From assembly GCA_021775955.1 (NCBI GenBank), contig JAJFGU010000014.1, positions 62,001 through 126,000 on the forward strand: a stretch of 64,000 nucleotides of DNA. The letters run 5' to 3'. This DNA comes from Alphaproteobacteria bacterium (lineage in GTDB: Bacteria > Pseudomonadota > Alphaproteobacteria > Micavibrionales > Micavibrionaceae). A program made the position numbers and the translations under genes. Numbering within the stretch: position 1 is the first letter of the stretch; the number at the start of each line of letters is the position of its first letter. Of this stretch, positions 39,013 to 47,029 are shown one piece after another. Under the pieces are notes generated by a model. The model was given only the letters and a program-made list of their open reading frames with translations, had not been told where the DNA came from and made no database searches.

Positions 39013-39417
39013 TTGACCCTAGGCATGATCGTCATAGAAAAAATAGAGCGGGCGGAGGATGAGCCTGATTTTGGGCCACCGGGTGAGGGGCCGGATCACG
39101 GCGATGGTGCCGGTCGGCCGGACGAGCAAACCGGAATTATTCTTAAAACCCGGCCCAAGACCAAAAAACCGTCCATGTATAAGGTCCTTATTCTGAATGA
39201 CGATTACACGCCGATGGAATTCGTTGTTCATATACTCGAGAGTTATTTTAGCAAGAACCGTCAGGAAGCCACTGATGTTATGCTGCATGTTCACAGGCGC
39301 GGCGTCGGGATTTGTGGTATCTTTACCTACGAGATTGCCGAAACCAAGGTGGCGCAGGTCATGGATTTTGCGCGCGCCAATGAACAACCCCTCCAATGCA
39401 CGATGGAGAAGGAATAA
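39013..39417 (+). CDS. clpS: ATP-dependent Clp protease adaptor ClpS
   Basis: Adaptor that delivers N-degron substrates to ClpA(P). The ClpS core is clear: [17 protein letters not shown] (the N-end-rule pocket residues Asn-Asp-Asp), [23 protein letters not shown] and a final LQCTMEKE. An N-terminal extension of about 45 residues, rich in Gly/Asp/Pro, precedes it. The TTG at 39013 has GGGAG 9 bases upstream; ATG 39025 is a possible alternative with a poorer site. clpA follows with no gap. Two long palindromes fill the leader. Confidence 0.93.
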
Positions 39418-41730
39418 ATGCTCTCACGGAATTTAGAACAAACACTTCACAAAGCTCTTGGTAGTGCCAATGACAAGCATCACGAATATGCGACGCTGGA
39501 GCATTTATTGCTGGCGCTGACCGATGATCAGGATGCAATGGCGGTGTTGCGCTCCTGCGGGATTAATCTGCCTGATTTGCGCGACCAGCTGGAACAATAT
39601 ATCCAAAGCGAGCTCACCTATCTGGTCAACAAAGACGCTGAGGAAGCCAAGCCTACAACAGCCTTCCAGCGCGTGTTGCAGCGCGCCGCCATTCATGTGC
39701 AATCATCCGGGCGTGAGGAAGTCACCGGCGCAAACGTATTGGTTGCGCTGTTTTCCGAACGCGAAAGCCACGCGGTGTATTTCCTGCAGGAACAGGACAT
39801 GACGCGCTTTGATGCGGTGAATTATATCTCGCACGGCATTGCCAAAGTGCCTTCGCAAAATGATGGAGGGCGTACGCCCCGCGGCGTCGAAGAAAGCGAA
39901 GATCAGCAAAGCAAAACCGGCTCCGAGGCACTCGATTCTTACTGCGCCAACCTGAATGAAAAGGCAAAGGCCGGCAAGATCGACCCGCTGATCGGGCGTG
40001 AGCAGGAGGTTGAGCGCACCGTTCAAATTTTGTGCCGCCGCTCTAAAAACAATCCGCTTTATGTTGGCGATCCCGGCGTTGGCAAAACCGCAATTGCCGA
40101 AGGCCTGGCCAAGCGCATCGTTGAGGGTGAGGTGCCAAGCGTCTTAAAAGATTCCATTATCTTTTCTCTCGATATGGGGAATCTGCTGGCCGGAACACGT
40201 TATCGTGGCGATTTCGAAGAACGCATCAAGGCGGTACTGGCCGAGCTCGAAAAAATTGACGGCTCGATCTTGTTCATTGATGAAATTCATACGGTGATCG
40301 GTGCCGGCGCGACAAGCGGTGGGGCGATGGATGCTTCGAACCTTTTGAAACCGGCGCTATCCAGTGGTGAGCTGCGCTGTATGGGCTCCACCACCTATAA
40401 AGAGTACCGCAATTACTTCGAGAAAGACCGCGCGTTGGTGCGCCGCTTCCAGAAAATAGATGTCCATGAGCCGAGCGTGGAAGACACGATCAAAATTCTT
40501 ATGGGCCTCAAGCCCTATTACGAGGAACATCACAAGGTGAAATATACGGCTGATGCGATTAAGGCCGCCGTCGAGCTTTCGGACAAATATATGGGCGATC
40601 GCAAATTGCCCGATAAAGCCATCGATATTATCGACGAAGTTGGCGCGGCGCAGATGCTGGTGCCGGAAAACAAACGAAAAAAGAAAATTGATGTGAAAGA
40701 CATCGAAGGCGTGGTCGCAGCGATTGCCCGCATTCCCGCCCAGACCATGACCAAGGACGACAAAACCGCGCTGCAAAATATGGAGCGCGATCTGAAAACC
40801 ATGGTCTATGATCAGGATAAAGCCATCGATGTACTGTGCGATTCGATCAAAATGGCGCGCGCGGGTTTGCGCGATAGCGAAAAACCCATCGGTTCTTATC
40901 TGTTTTCCGGTCCGACCGGAGTTGGTAAAACCGAAGTGGCGCGCCAGCTTGCCAAAACCATGGGCGTGGAACTTTTGCGCTTTGACATGTCGGAGTATAT
41001 GGAACGCCACTCTGTAAGCCGCCTGATCGGCACGCCGCCGGGCTATGTTGGCTTTGAACAGGGCGGGTTGCTCACCGATAAGATTGATCAGCATCCTCAT
41101 AGTGTTCTTCTGCTCGATGAAATTGAAAAAGCCCATCCGGACTTATTTAACATCCTGTTACAGGTAATGGATTACGGCAAGCTGACGGATAATAACGGCA
41201 AGACAATTGATTTCCGTAACGTTATTCTAATCATGACCACCAATGCCGGGGCGCAGGAAATGGCAAAAGCGCCGATGGGATTTGAACGCGAGGTGCGGGT
41301 CGAGGAAGACATGGACGCGATCAATAAAATGTTCTCGCCCGAGTTTAGAAACCGCCTTGATTCCGTTGTGCCGTTCCAGAATCTGCAACCTACAACCGTC
41401 GAGCGCGTGGTTGATAAATTCATTATGCAGCTCGAGGCGCAGTTATCCGATAAAGATGTGGTGATCGAACTCACCGATAAGGCGCGTAAACACCTGGCCG
41501 AAGCCGGTTATGACGTGACCATGGGTGCGCGGCCACTGGCACGGATTATCCAGGAAAAGGTTAAACGCCCGCTGGCTGAGGAAATCCTGTTTGGCAAGCT
41601 TGCCGGTGGCGGTGCGGTCACGGTCGATTACGACGATGGTGCGCTTACCTTTGTTTATGAAGACGAGGCAGAAGAGGACAAGCCGAAAAAGAGCAAGAAG
41701 TCTTCGAAAAAAGAAGAAGTTCCGAAATAA
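39418..41730 (+). CDS. clpA: ATP-dependent Clp protease ATP-binding subunit ClpA
   Basis: AAA+ unfoldase partner of ClpP. The 770-residue protein has the N-terminal double Clp-N repeat (about 1-145), the first AAA domain (Walker A GDPGVGKT, Walker [10 protein letters not shown]) and the second ([19 protein letters not shown]), plus a ClpB-D2-type end. An IGF/IGL-type ClpP-docking loop was not checked residue by residue. The last 30 residues are a Lys/Glu-rich tail ([13 protein letters not shown]). Its ATG directly follows the clpS stop (TAA-ATG), so translation is coupled. Confidence 0.96.
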
Positions 41731-41731
41731 C

Positions 41732-42430
41732 TTACCGCACAATCAAAACCTGATAGAAAAAATACGACCCGCCAGCGGAGGTTTCCGTGCAGCCGGCCAG
41801 CTTGCCTTTCAGCACATCATCACCGGCTGAATCTTCAATATCTTCCTGCCAGGTATAATCGCCGATAAATTTGGTAAAGCTCACGGCGTCATTTTGCTGT
41901 GGTGGCGCGCCCGAAGGCGTCGTGATACCGAGCTTGTCATTGATGGCGCTGCAAACCGGCAACTTGATATCTTCCAGCACCGCATAAAGCTCGGTGCAGG
42001 TCGTTCCGGCGCCGCAATCGGTACCGACATCATCAACCTCAAGCCGTCCGCCGAAAGCCCAGTCCGTGCCGCCATTAATTTCTGCAGGCGAGGGCACAAG
42101 CAGCATCGCCCCACCATCGGTGTGAAATACTTTACACTTGTCGCTTACAACCGGTGTGTGGGCATAACCGGCAATGGTAGCATTGTTAAAGCTGATATCG
42201 GTATCGGTGCAACTATTGGAAATGCGTATTGATTGTACGGCCTGACGCAATTTTCGCCCGTAATCGATGACTTCCCCGGCATTCAGTGCACCTTTTTCAT
42301 CGCCGATACTGCCCGTATCACCGCCGCGCATCATATTACCGACGGTGAAGCTGAGCGCCGCGAATAAAACGATTGCAACGAAAATAAGAATGAGGACACT
42401 GCCGTTTTCAGAATTTTTTTGCACAATCAT
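41732..42430 (-). CDS. Prepilin-like secreted protein 2
   Basis: A 232-residue protein with the same plan as the one at 35467-36225. SENGSVLILIFVAIVLFAALSFTVG supplies a Gly step before a hydrophobic helix (about residues 9-29). A conserved-looking EVIDYGRKLRQAVQSI helix follows, then a polar cysteine-rich body (eight or so Cys) and the ending SYFFYQVLIVR. ATG 42430 is preferred to the much longer open frame because the hydrophobic start is then at residue 9, as in pilin-like proteins. It converges with clpA with no gap. Function unknown. Confidence 0.75.
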   Translation of the reverse strand: MIVQKNSENGSVLILIFVAIVLFAALSFTVGNMMRGGDTGSIGDEKGALNAGEVIDYGRKLRQAVQSIRISNSCTDTDISFNNATIAGYAHTPVVSDKCKVFHTDGGAMLLVPSPAEINGGTDWAFGGRLEVDDVGTDCGAGTTCTELYAVLEDIKLPVCSAINDKLGITTPSGAPPQQNDAVSFTKFIGDYTWQEDIEDSAGDDVLKGKLAGCTETSAGGSYFFYQVLIVR

Positions 42431-42533
42431 CTCTAAACTATAGCAAATTTCTAATCGTTTCCTTGCTAAAGTTTGTAAAACAGCCAAAAAAAGTTCGATG
42501 AAACGCCTTAATTCATGGTTTAATAATATCACT

Positions 42534-43421
42534 ATGAGTGAAACGCCTTTTATAACCATTTTAATTGCTGAAGATAACGATGTCAGTCGCCAGATGATGG
42601 CGGGCATTGTTGAGAGCCAGGGTTATAAATCCATTGGCGCGATTGATGGTAACAGCGCCATCAAGGTGGTGGAGGAACATAATGTCGATCTCGCGCTGGT
42701 CGATCTTAATATGTCACCCAAAGGTGGGTTTGAATTCGTCAAATATCTGATGATTAATTCCATTGATCTCCCGGTGATTATTGTCACGGCCGATAATTCC
42801 AGCGATTTGCTGATGGAGGCCAATAATCTTGGCGTGAAGCAAATCCTGCAAAAACCGTTCAAACCGGAAATGCTGATCAAAATGATGCAGCGCATCTTGA
42901 AGCAACAGGGCTTAAACCCGCAGCCGCTTGCAGTGACCTCGCATGAGACGAAATACAGCCCGGAAGAGCTGATGCAATATGCGGTTGATCTGGCTGATCG
43001 CAACGCCCAGACCAAAAGGGGTGGACCTTTCGGTGCCGTGGTTGCGGACAAGGAAGGCCAAATTCTCGGCGAAGGGGTCAGCGGCATTACCTCACGCGTT
43101 GACCCCACAGCACACGCCGAAGTAATGGCGATTCGTCAGGCGGCGGAAAGACTGGGGCGTTCCGATCTCATAGATTGCACGCTATATTGTAGCTCGGAGC
43201 CGACGATGATGGGAAAAGCGCTCATTATTTCGGTTGGTATTCCGAAGGTCTGTTATGGGCTGAGTCACGAAGATATCAAATCTATCCGTGAGCGCGAGGA
43301 AGCCGTACGCGAAGAATTAATCGGCACAGCGACGCGGACGGAATACCGGCAGATCGGCCACGAATCTGCGATGAAAATGTTCCGGCGCTGGGAAGCGCAG
43401 GATGAGAAGCTGAGTGATTAG
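42534..43421 (+). CDS. Response regulator receiver fused to a degenerate cytidine-deaminase-like domain
   Basis: A 295-residue protein from ATG 42534 (an upstream ATG at 42498 is possible). Residues 6-122 form a complete receiver domain: acidic pair Glu13-Asp14, phospho-acceptor Asp57 in LVDLNM, Thr85 in VTAD and Lys107 in LQKPF. After a linker, residues 143-275 have the fold of guanine/cytosine deaminases: RGGPFGAVVADKEG and PTAHAEVMAI (zinc His194 and Glu196). Where active enzymes have PCxxC, this protein has SSEPTMMGK, so both zinc cysteines are replaced by Thr224 and Gly227. A deaminase role is therefore unlikely. RidA lies convergent and overlaps by 4 bp. Confidence 0.88.
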   Translation: MSETPFITILIAEDNDVSRQMMAGIVESQGYKSIGAIDGNSAIKVVEEHNVDLALVDLNMSPKGGFEFVKYLMINSIDLPVIIVTADNSSDLLMEANNLGVKQILQKPFKPEMLIKMMQRILKQQGLNPQPLAVTSHETKYSPEELMQYAVDLADRNAQTKRGGPFGAVVADKEGQILGEGVSGITSRVDPTAHAEVMAIRQAAERLGRSDLIDCTLYCSSEPTMMGKALIISVGIPKVCYGLSHEDIKSIREREEAVREELIGTATRTEYRQIGHESAMKMFRRWEAQDEKLSD

Positions 43422-43882
43422 GCTGCTATTTCGAACACGGCATCAATTTCCACCGCGACATCCAAAGGCAAAGACGGTGCGCCGACAGCAAAACGTGCGT
43501 GTTTTCCGGCATCGCCCATCACTTTGACGATGAGCTCGGACGCGCCGTTAATCACCGCCGGGTGGTCGGTGAAATCGGCCGTAGCATTGACGAAGCCGCC
43601 GAGCTTGACGCAGCGTGTAACCCGGCTCCAATCACCATCCGCAGCCGCATTCGCCTGGGCCAGAATGTTGAGGGCGCAGGCTTTGGCCGCTTCAACACCT
43701 TGCTCGATAGAGAGGTCTTCACCCAGTCTTCCGGTGTGCATCTTCTCGCCGTTTAGAAACGGTATTTGTCCGGCAACAAAGACCAGATTGCCGCTCACGA
43801 CATAGGGGACATAGCTGGCGTAAGCCGTAGGTGCATCCGGCAATTCATAGCCAAGCCCTGCTAGTTTGTCTTTCAAGCTCAT
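43418..43882 (-). CDS. RidA/YjgF family protein
   Basis: A 154-residue RidA-family protein, the longer YjgF-like class. It has VVSGNLVFVAGQIPF near residue 28, GVEAAKACALNILAQ, and near the end KHARFAVGAPSLPLDVAVEID, where the arginine is the residue that binds the carboxylate in enamine/imine deaminases. Family members trim reactive imines. The start overlaps the stop of the upstream secreted-protein gene by ATGA, so it is translationally coupled to that gene. Confidence 0.9.
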   Translation of the reverse strand: MSLKDKLAGLGYELPDAPTAYASYVPYVVSGNLVFVAGQIPFLNGEKMHTGRLGEDLSIEQGVEAAKACALNILAQANAAADGDWSRVTRCVKLGGFVNATADFTDHPAVINGASELIVKVMGDAGKHARFAVGAPSLPLDVAVEIDAVFEIAA

Positions 43883-44811
43883 AACTCGTTCTCATCGAAT
43901 TCAGGTTTCTCTTCTTCTTCCTCTTCCTCACCCGCAGCCGGCTCCAGCGTTGGCAACGCCAGAAGTTCGGCCTTTTGCTGCTCGAACACGTCGCGGGCAT
44001 TATCGGTATCATACATCCATGCCGGGTCGTCGAAATAGTCCTCAATCTCGGGGTTGTCGTTTTCAAGGACGGTATGCTTCATTGCTGCGTACTCATCCAT
44101 GCTTTTAAAGACACTTTTATAAGCAGGGTCGTGAATGATGATTTCCTTGTTTTCCTTTATCTCTTTGACGAAAGCCTGAAAGGCTTCCAGCGGCTCTAGC
44201 CCGGCTTGTTGGGCGACCACTTTGCCACCATATTCCTCATATAAAGCCTTTTTGATCTTCCAGCTTTTAACCATGCTTTCGGCCATTTGGTATTCGCCCT
44301 GCTCCATTTTCTCTCTCATCGCATCGGGAAACGCCTCACGCATGTTGTACATCATGATTTCCTTCTGCTTATGCGCTGCCAGCTCGTTGAGCAGTTTAGA
44401 ATTCTCAGGAGTATATTGATTCTGCGCAAGCAGCTCTTCAATCAGATCGTCCGTTTTCTTATTCAGATCGTTCTGCTTCCGGATGGTTTTGTGAAAGGCC
44501 TTAAGATAGGATTTCACCTCTCTCTTTGACGGAATAATCTCATCTTCACCATATTTGCGAATAAGCGCAGTTTCCCAGAGAAGGCCAAACAGGCTGGAAA
44601 CCTTGAAGTCTCTAACGGCCTGATGGGGGTTTTGCTTGGATTTACGGGCGTAGTCGCGGATGTTGTCCTCAAGCGCCTTACCGGGCAGAATTTCTTTGGC
44701 GCAAACATCCTGGCCAAAAATACTGGCTATCGGTTTGCAGGCCTCTTCCGCCAAGGCTTGTGCGGGTAGAGAAATAATAATCAGAACACTGAAGAGTCGA
44801 AATATATACAT
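43879..44811 (-). CDS. Secreted helical protein, acidic tail
   Basis: A 310-residue protein with a signal peptide (FRLFSVLIIISLPAQALA, cleavage near residue 21). The first mature segment ACKPIASIFGQDVCAKEILP has two cysteines. Long charged helices follow, and the protein ends in an acidic run (GEEEEEEEKPEFDENEL). The helical N-terminal half is loosely like SurA-type chaperones, but there is no prolyl-isomerase motif that I can see. It is the first gene of a pair with RidA (ATGA overlap). Function unknown. Confidence 0.8.
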   Translation of the reverse strand: MYIFRLFSVLIIISLPAQALAEEACKPIASIFGQDVCAKEILPGKALEDNIRDYARKSKQNPHQAVRDFKVSSLFGLLWETALIRKYGEDEIIPSKREVKSYLKAFHKTIRKQNDLNKKTDDLIEELLAQNQYTPENSKLLNELAAHKQKEIMMYNMREAFPDAMREKMEQGEYQMAESMVKSWKIKKALYEEYGGKVVAQQAGLEPLEAFQAFVKEIKENKEIIIHDPAYKSVFKSMDEYAAMKHTVLENDNPEIEDYFDDPAWMYDTDNARDVFEQQKAELLALPTLEPAAGEEEEEEEKPEFDENEL

Positions 44812-46372: not shown

Positions 46373-47029
46373 TTAATATTTTTCACGCATCTCAAAGAAT
46401 TTTTCAAGAAGATCGCTTTCTTTCATTCCAGGTAAAAGGAAATCGGCCTCAACTTTAAGAACAGGCTCAAGGCGTTTCATATATTCCTTATGGCTTAGTT
46501 CATAAGCGCCGAATTGTTTCAGGTGGTCGTTGATAAATTGCGTATCGAGCATGGCAAAGCGGCCTTCCCACAAACGGGCCGCCAGATGGATTAGCGCAAT
46601 TTTGCTGGCATCACGCCTACGCGAAAACATGCTCTCACCAAAAAACGCGCCGCCAATGGCAATGCCGTATAAACCGCCGACCAGTTCATCATCTTTCCAG
46701 CACTCAATGCTATGGGCGTGGCCTTGTTCATGCAGCTTGCAATAGGCCTCAACAATCGATTGATTGATCCAGGTCTCGGGGCGGTTTTCGGTGTTCTCGG
46801 CGCAGGACTCCATGATTTTTTTGAAAGCCGTATTGATCCGAATTTTATACGGTGCGGAGCGGAGCGTTTTCATGAGACGCTCCGGAATGTGAATTTCATC
46901 GATGGGCAGCTGGCCGCGCTGCTCCGGGCATATCCAGTGGATATAGCGGCTATGGGCGCTATAGGCCATGGGAAAAAGCCCCTGTTTATAGGCCTCTAAA
47001 AGCAATTCTGATGTAAGGACAAGCTGCAT
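46373..47029 (-). CDS. aat: Leucyl/phenylalanyl-tRNA--protein transferase
   Basis: Adds Leu or Phe to N-terminal Arg/Lys of proteins, making N-degrons for ClpS-ClpA degradation. The 218-residue protein has the conserved LLLEAYKQGLFPMA start, WICPEQRGQLP, GHAHSIECWKDDELVGGLYGIAIGGAFFGESMFSRRRDASKIAL and FAMLDTQFINDHLKQFGA. The N-end-rule partner clpS is also in this window. It is the last gene of the minus-strand block and ends 3 bp from the convergent DUF2155 gene. Confidence 0.96.
   Translation of the reverse strand: MQLVLTSELLLEAYKQGLFPMAYSAHSRYIHWICPEQRGQLPIDEIHIPERLMKTLRSAPYKIRINTAFKKIMESCAENTENRPETWINQSIVEAYCKLHEQGHAHSIECWKDDELVGGLYGIAIGGAFFGESMFSRRRDASKIALIHLAARLWEGRFAMLDTQFINDHLKQFGAYELSHKEYMKRLEPVLKVEADFLLPGMKESDLLEKFFEMREKY

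Follow-up and report, generated by a model that had tools for sequence, protein, structure and literature searches.

The window analysed here, a stretch of 64,000 nucleotides from a contig of a Micavibrionaceae bacterium (JAJFGU010000014.1, positions 62,001 to 126,000), encodes a 295-residue protein in which a receiver (REC) domain is joined to a guanine-deaminase-like domain that lacks its zinc site. Pfam places Response_reg on residues 9-118 (E 4.1e-22) and dCMP_cyt_deam_1 on residues 143-242 (E 2.4e-20), and the nearest solved structure by sequence is guanine deaminase from B. subtilis, 1wkq (E 5.3e-18). An alternative in-frame ATG at 42498 would lengthen the protein by 12 residues. Misreading of the ORF, or a frame error, can be ruled out, since 42 full-length copies from 20 genera are open. 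Downstream, the gene order is RidA, an unnamed gene, NDUFA12, MlaD, DUF2155 and aat. No kinase was found among the window neighbours scanned with Pfam, two of which have no Pfam match at all. A scan for promoters and terminators returned three promoter-like sites (2.4 in shuffled sequence) and five terminator-like sites (2.5 in shuffles), and none of these was used. The features of the locus are collected in Table 1.

Table 1. Genes and protein features at the fusion locus, in window coordinates
Feature	Coordinates	Strand	Basis and remarks
clpS, N-degron adaptor, upstream	39013..39417	+	Pfam ClpS 3e-35; start codon uncertain
clpA, upstream	39418..41730	+	match to ClpA
Gene between clpA and the fusion gene; hydrophobic stretch near the likely start, pilin-like by eye	41732..42607	-	no Pfam match
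REC + zinc-less guanine-deaminase-like fusion gene, 295 aa	42534..43421	+	ORF and Pfam; 42 full-length copies including this one
Receiver (REC) domain, residues 7-125	42552..42908	+	Pfam Response_reg; VIA-align Z 22.4 to VicR receiver
Phospho-acceptor codon Asp57 (with E13, D14, T85, K107)	42702..42704	+	sequence, alignment
Guanine-deaminase-fold domain without zinc site, residues 142-295	42957..43418	+	Pfam; Z 21.9 to 7dqn
Ser183, counterpart of the purine-anchoring Asn (BsGD N42, AtGSDA N69)	43080..43082	+	alignment; Asn in 36/42 copies
Arg188, common to the zinc-less clade (40/42)	43095..43097	+	alignment
HAE motif 194-196, retained	43113..43121	+	alignment
Thr224-Gly227; Thr and Gly replace both zinc cysteines (PTMMG vs PCPMC)	43203..43214	+	alignment
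RidA/YjgF-like gene, convergent, overlaps the end of the fusion gene by 4 bases	43418..43882	-	Pfam YjgF_endoribonc 3.3e-26
310-aa gene, signal-peptide-like start by eye	43879..44811	-	no Pfam match; relatives in 7/41 other f1 loci
aat, leucyl/phenylalanyl-tRNA protein transferase (N-degron pathway)	46373..47029	-	Pfam Leu_Phe_trans 6.5e-68

Both halves of the protein adopt the expected folds in an AlphaFold2 (AF2) model with a mean pLDDT of 84.5, although an important caveat is that the pTM of 0.53 is low, so that how the two domains are placed relative to each other is not reliable and should not be read. The low-confidence stretches are residues 131-138 and 255-266. Structural alignment with VIA-align matches residues 6-127 to the VicR receiver (Z 22.4) and residues 142-295 to Arabidopsis guanosine deaminase 7dqn (Z 21.9, rmsd 2.3 over 148 residues), and Foldseek likewise ranks Arabidopsis guanosine deaminase first for the deaminase part. 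An earlier note on this DNA had made its reading depend on a deaminase fold in the C-terminal part; Pfam, the AF2 model and the structure comparison all place it in the cytidine deaminase superfamily. The receiver of the window copy carries all five phosphorylation residues (E13, D14, D57, T85 and K107), as the note had read.

Where 1wkq has CEPCPMC, the window protein has SEPTMMG, and HAE is kept at residues 194-196, which bears out the earlier description of a deaminase partner without its zinc cysteines. In guanosine deaminase, as set out in PMC9739398, zinc is bound by His80, Cys110 and Cys113. Glu82 serves as general base, Asn69 holds the purine in place, and the C-terminal Tyr185 closes the site as a cap. 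These residues (H80/C110/C113/E82/N69/Y185) align to H194/T224/G227/E196/S183/D295 of the window protein. The domain resembles GuaD enzymes (B. subtilis 1wkq/1tiy, N. europaea NE0047, plant guanosine deaminase 7dbf) in its fold, in its match to 1wkq (42% over 105 columns), in the GGPF and DPTAHAE motifs and, in most of the family, in the purine-anchoring Asn. It differs from them in having an attached REC domain and in what its clade has lost, namely both cysteines and, mostly, the Tyr cap and the GFDD..Y segment.

We searched 142 genomes of the order, fetched the loci and read the sequences. Zinc-less REC fusions occur only in the window's own family (f1), as 42 full-length copies plus one deaminase fragment at a contig end (G097), which is left out of every count of 42. 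None of the 42 retains either zinc cysteine; of the His-Cys-Cys ligand set of guanine deaminase only the histidine is kept, in 41 copies. The position of the first cysteine is Thr224 throughout (42/42), and position 227, that of the second, is Gly in 39 copies, Ser in two and Ala in one. The catalytic Glu196 of HAE is invariant. Position 183 is Asn in 36 copies, Ser in five, the window copy among them, and Gly in one. Two further residues are widely shared, Arg188 (40/42) and Ser221 (37/42). The substrate cap has changed as well: a final Tyr is found in only 2 of the 42 zinc-less copies versus 90 of 95 active sequences, the window copy ending in Asp295, and the GFDD..Y segment is mostly missing from the zinc-less clade by the same comparison. 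The active set combines 24 sequences of the order with 71 from guanine-deaminase-like loci listed in contigs of other genomes; G034, G083 and G097 were omitted from the comparison, as were L183, L197, L169, L182 and L196 from the 76 such loci.

Because both zinc cysteines are gone, normal guanine deaminase activity of the fusion protein is very unlikely. One could instead suppose that HAE, together with Thr224, Ser221 and Arg188, has become a new active site that works without zinc or is altered in some other way. The conservation of these residues (Glu 42/42, His 41/42, Thr224 42/42, Arg188 40/42, Ser221 37/42) speaks for such an enzyme, but guanine and guanosine deaminases are zinc-dependent according to PMC9739398, and the substrate cap is mostly gone too. 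We regard an altered enzyme as extremely improbable.

In a tree of 87 deaminase domains, the 42 f1 copies lie on one side of a branch of length 1.1 with support of 100/100, although the zinc-motif columns were included, which may contribute to keeping the zinc-less copies in one clade. The tree uses 20 of the 76 other loci and omits G083 and G097. Two changes of zinc state are needed on it, the second being in G034, and the simplest reading of these sequences is that zinc was lost once, before f1 diversified. A single mutated copy, the outcome the earlier note had set against its own reading, is ruled out by the 0 of 42 orthologues that keep either cysteine. The cysteines are lost throughout among orthologues, but not among the distant REC-deaminase fusions of other families, where 13 of 14 keep the zinc site.

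The zinc-less domain is under purifying selection and does not look like a domain in decay. Of eight zinc-less pairs, six yielded a dN/dS for it: 0.034, 0.064, 0.007, 0.041, 0.037 and 0.086 (the other two are saturated, and three of the six have dS of at least 1.7, so that these values are rough). Three zinc-bearing pairs give 0.043, 0.119 and 0.045. Mean pairwise identity among the 42 copies is 0.62 in the deaminase part (residues 142-245) and 0.49 in REC. It is the low dN/dS range, together with an identity above that of REC, that argues against decay.

Alternatively, REC alone would do the work, and the deaminase half would be a degenerating tail. For that reading one can cite G065 and G016, two f1 genomes in which REC stands by itself in the locus slot, and G113, which lacks the histidine and has a very long branch in the deaminase tree. 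A REC tree nests the G065 and G016 receivers among the fused copies, although this tree is poorly resolved, has few columns and came with a warning of joined long branches. The deaminase part was probably lost secondarily in these two genomes, and on their evidence the dead domain can apparently be dispensed with. Against a decaying tail, the deaminase half persists in 42 genomes from 20 genera, at dN/dS values of 0.007-0.086 and a mean identity above that of REC, and we consider it very improbable.

The receiver of f1 is mostly, but not uniformly, intact. All five key residues are present in 35 of the 42 copies and part of the set is missing from seven, among them G024 and G066, in which E-Q replaces the acidic pair; the phospho-Asp itself is missing from four. 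The earlier picture of a dead deaminase held behind an intact receiver therefore stands in full for the deaminase, dead in 42 of 42, and needs qualifying for the receiver.

Families f3 and f5 of the order also have REC-deaminase fusions, of which we read 14 copies. These have the same domain order, and the f3 copies adjoin clpSA, but they are otherwise a mirror image of the f1 protein. The zinc motif is CEPCPMC or TEPCPMC in 13 of the 14, whereas none has the full five-residue receiver set: Asp57 and Lys107 are present in all, one or both acidic residues are missing in all, and the Thr is missing in 12. Because the zinc site is kept in 13 of 14, the dead form has, to judge by these motifs, active-enzyme relatives of the same architecture. 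It is suggestive that the two halves of this fusion family are alive by turns, although the independent events are few and the pattern is not a statistical result; the fused state requires at least four changes across f1, f3 and f5 on the deaminase tree. One f5 fusion, G034 (L114, 5258-6058, minus strand), has undergone its own, different site loss, with HAE changed to KAV and CEPCPMC to SEPEPMS. Four f5 loci (L098, L104, L106 and L107) hold zinc-bearing deaminases with a receiver-like part that has few of the key residues, and have no nearby ClpA match.

When the window protein was searched against 385 genomes drawn evenly over the class, matches at E<=1e-25 came only from f1 (three genomes), and with an f3 fusion as query the listed matches outside f1 all start past query residue 128, which is the deaminase part only; in both searches at most six candidates per genome were scored, and a fusion may have escaped notice. 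Among 80 guanine-deaminase-like loci listed from many phyla, four are zinc-less fusions (L121-L124, that is G061, G013, G081 and G060). PCxxC is present in 74 of the 76 others listed, the frame of L183 not being recovered, and no receiver was found in the open frames of these 76. One of them, L197 (5557-6009), a solo guanine-deaminase-like ORF in a Bacilli MAG, reads PCPMR, with the second zinc cysteine changed.

Taken together, these observations support a model in which the fusion protein is a non-catalytic, selected and phospho-controlled binding module, a core reading that we hold with good confidence. It probably acts through a binding partner or a purine, not through catalysis.

Binding of a purine is the main rival to a ClpAP-linked regulator. 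According to this proposal, the zinc-free pocket would bind guanine, xanthine or a related nucleotide and so tune phosphorylation or dimerisation of REC, or the reverse. The inner half of the pocket is retained, with HAE, GGP and, in 36 of 42 copies, the purine-anchoring Asn largely kept, and PMC9739398 reports crystals of the guanosine deaminase mutants E82Q and Y185F with guanosine bound. A solo match at guanine-deaminase level is found in only 1 of the 42 genomes (G012, E 2e-63), so the ligand would mostly go unconsumed by such an enzyme. The outer half is less favourable: little is left of the C-terminal Tyr and the GFDD..Y segment in these copies, and in the plant enzyme a cap two or four residues shorter lowers ligand-bound stability, as the same paper describes (PMC9739398). 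In addition, six copies, that of the window among them, have Ser or Gly in place of the anchoring Asn. On balance, we think a purine sensor unlikely.

The domain might instead serve as a pseudo-subunit, forming a heterodimer with an active deaminase, either TadA or, where present, guanine deaminase. There is a precedent in ADAT3, which heterodimerises with ADAT2. The shared fold would allow such pairing, and 41 of the 42 genomes have at least one further, mostly weaker deaminase match; we read the scores of these matches as mostly TadA. Bacterial TadA, however, is a homodimer. As for guanine deaminase, a solo match at that level occurs only in G012, the next solo matches being 1.4e-20 or weaker, and partnering with an active guanine deaminase is unlikely for that reason. 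We judge the pseudo-subunit reading distinctly improbable.

The neighbourhood points toward the Clp system, although not to it alone. Matches to the window's neighbours were sought in the 41 other f1 loci, many of which are cut by contig ends (28 of 41 are at least 12 kb), and are most frequent for the pilin-like gene (33 loci) and NDUFA12 (32), followed by Aat (28), ClpA (27), RidA (25) and ClpS (18). With the window included, a ClpA-type match is present in 28 of 42 f1 loci, three of the matches being only 47-52% identical and perhaps paralogues. In G003, G009 and G012, clpA lies about 15 kb away or on another contig. In L214 (G012), L215 (G016) and L216 (G015), clpA has a further ClpA-like gene beside it, with 37-56% identity to the window ClpA, and the 52% matches in L072/L073 (G024, G066) and the 47% match in L080 (G014) may be the same ClpA paralogue.

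The association extends beyond f1. ClpA is present in all 14 f3 loci, beside a solo guaD in five and a REC-guaD in nine, all zinc-bearing. In 12 of these 14 the distance between the stop of the preceding long ORF (clpA) and the guaD or REC-guaD start is -1 to 19 bp, a spacing as in an operon; the other two distances are -95 and 626. In family f2, G030 has a standalone REC, 48% identical to the window REC, just after clpA and on the same strand, and G025 has a similar REC and clpA on different contigs. By comparison, a ClpA match is found near none of five f5 fusions (four of these loci are shorter than 10 kb) and a ClpA-like match in 1 of the 76 other guanine-deaminase-like loci listed from many phyla. 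Among the neighbours tested, clpA is the one common to f1, f3 and G030, and for this reason an adaptor or anti-adaptor of ClpAP is our first choice.

Several observations caution against reading too much into this. The pilin-like gene, NDUFA12 and Aat are found as often as ClpA in f1, or more often, which counts against the link. In most f1 loci a gene on the opposite strand splits clpA from the fusion gene. In addition, the order clpA...NDUFA12-MlaD-DUF2155 is present in all four f7 regions, and neither a REC nor a deaminase was recognised inside it. This arrangement is an old synteny, and the fusion gene may have inherited its neighbourhood.

The design itself has a precedent. RssB combines a REC domain that has its phospho-Asp with a PP2C fold that has lost its active-site residues, and is the ClpXP adaptor for sigma S (PMC7226468). 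Like the f1 fusion, it places a phospho-Asp receiver N-terminal to an enzyme fold missing active-site residues; unlike it, the dead domain is PP2C rather than guanine deaminase, and the Clp link in f1 is genomic only and to ClpA, not ClpX. RssB is, by analogy, the nearest working counterpart, and it shows that such a design exists. Membership of the RssB family itself is ruled out, because the model scores 61.9 versus a cut-off of 329 and covers residues 8-119 only, and because the effector has a deaminase fold.

CpdR, which acts with ClpXP, and other single-domain REC adaptors of Alphaproteobacteria also tie a receiver to a Clp protease. They resemble the f1 fusion in that tie, and the standalone REC beside clpA in G030 recalls them, but they have no deaminase domain. 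The window protein is not a CpdR: the NCBIfam model gives 3.2e-11 and 43.3 bits versus a cut-off of 180, below other receiver models.

We tentatively propose, at less than even confidence, that the fusion protein works as an atypical response regulator. Its output would be a guanine deaminase that no longer catalyses and that serves as a phospho-switched adaptor or anti-adaptor of ClpAP. In this mechanism, a histidine kinase would phosphorylate Asp57 of REC, and phosphorylation would change target binding by the zinc-free domain, so that the output would be binding and not deamination. The zinc-free domain would probably be dimeric, as deaminases are. Its target would most likely be part of the ClpS-ClpA(P) system encoded nearby, for which the protein would be an adaptor, or an anti-adaptor, under the control of phosphorylation. 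The link to ClpAP, drawn from genome context and the analogy with RssB, is the doubtful element, and taken by itself we consider it possible but unlikely.

A more elaborate and decidedly less probable version merges the two ideas. In it, the zinc-free domain would be a two-component output that senses a purine and thereby sets ClpS-ClpA(P) proteolysis, making the protein a purine- and phosphate-gated protease adaptor. The same long shot would have one fusion family lead two opposite lives, as an enzyme with a broken receiver and as a receiver with a broken enzyme, in hosts that include an obligate predator.

The pairing of REC with a dead enzyme is already known from RssB; what appear to be new, within the literature searched, are a dead guanine deaminase as output and the pattern of halves alive by turns. 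That literature comprised titles and the starts of abstracts, with most subscription journals outside its scope; it yielded no REC-guanine-deaminase fusion and no paper with 'guanine deaminase' together with 'pseudoenzyme'. The word deaminase is also absent from the main text of the genome paper of Micavibrio aeruginosavorus ARL-13 (PMC3189940).

If the core reading holds, the f1 fusion would bring a pseudo-deaminase into the set of response-regulator outputs that do not bind DNA, and would be a further case, after RssB, of a receiver coupled to a dead enzyme. The order would then offer a natural series, running from the solo enzyme, through an incomplete receiver with a zinc-bearing enzyme and an intact receiver with a dead enzyme, to the receiver alone, which would show how a metabolic enzyme becomes a signalling module. 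There seems to be a cultured orthologue, in the predator Micavibrio aeruginosavorus, which makes the question testable.
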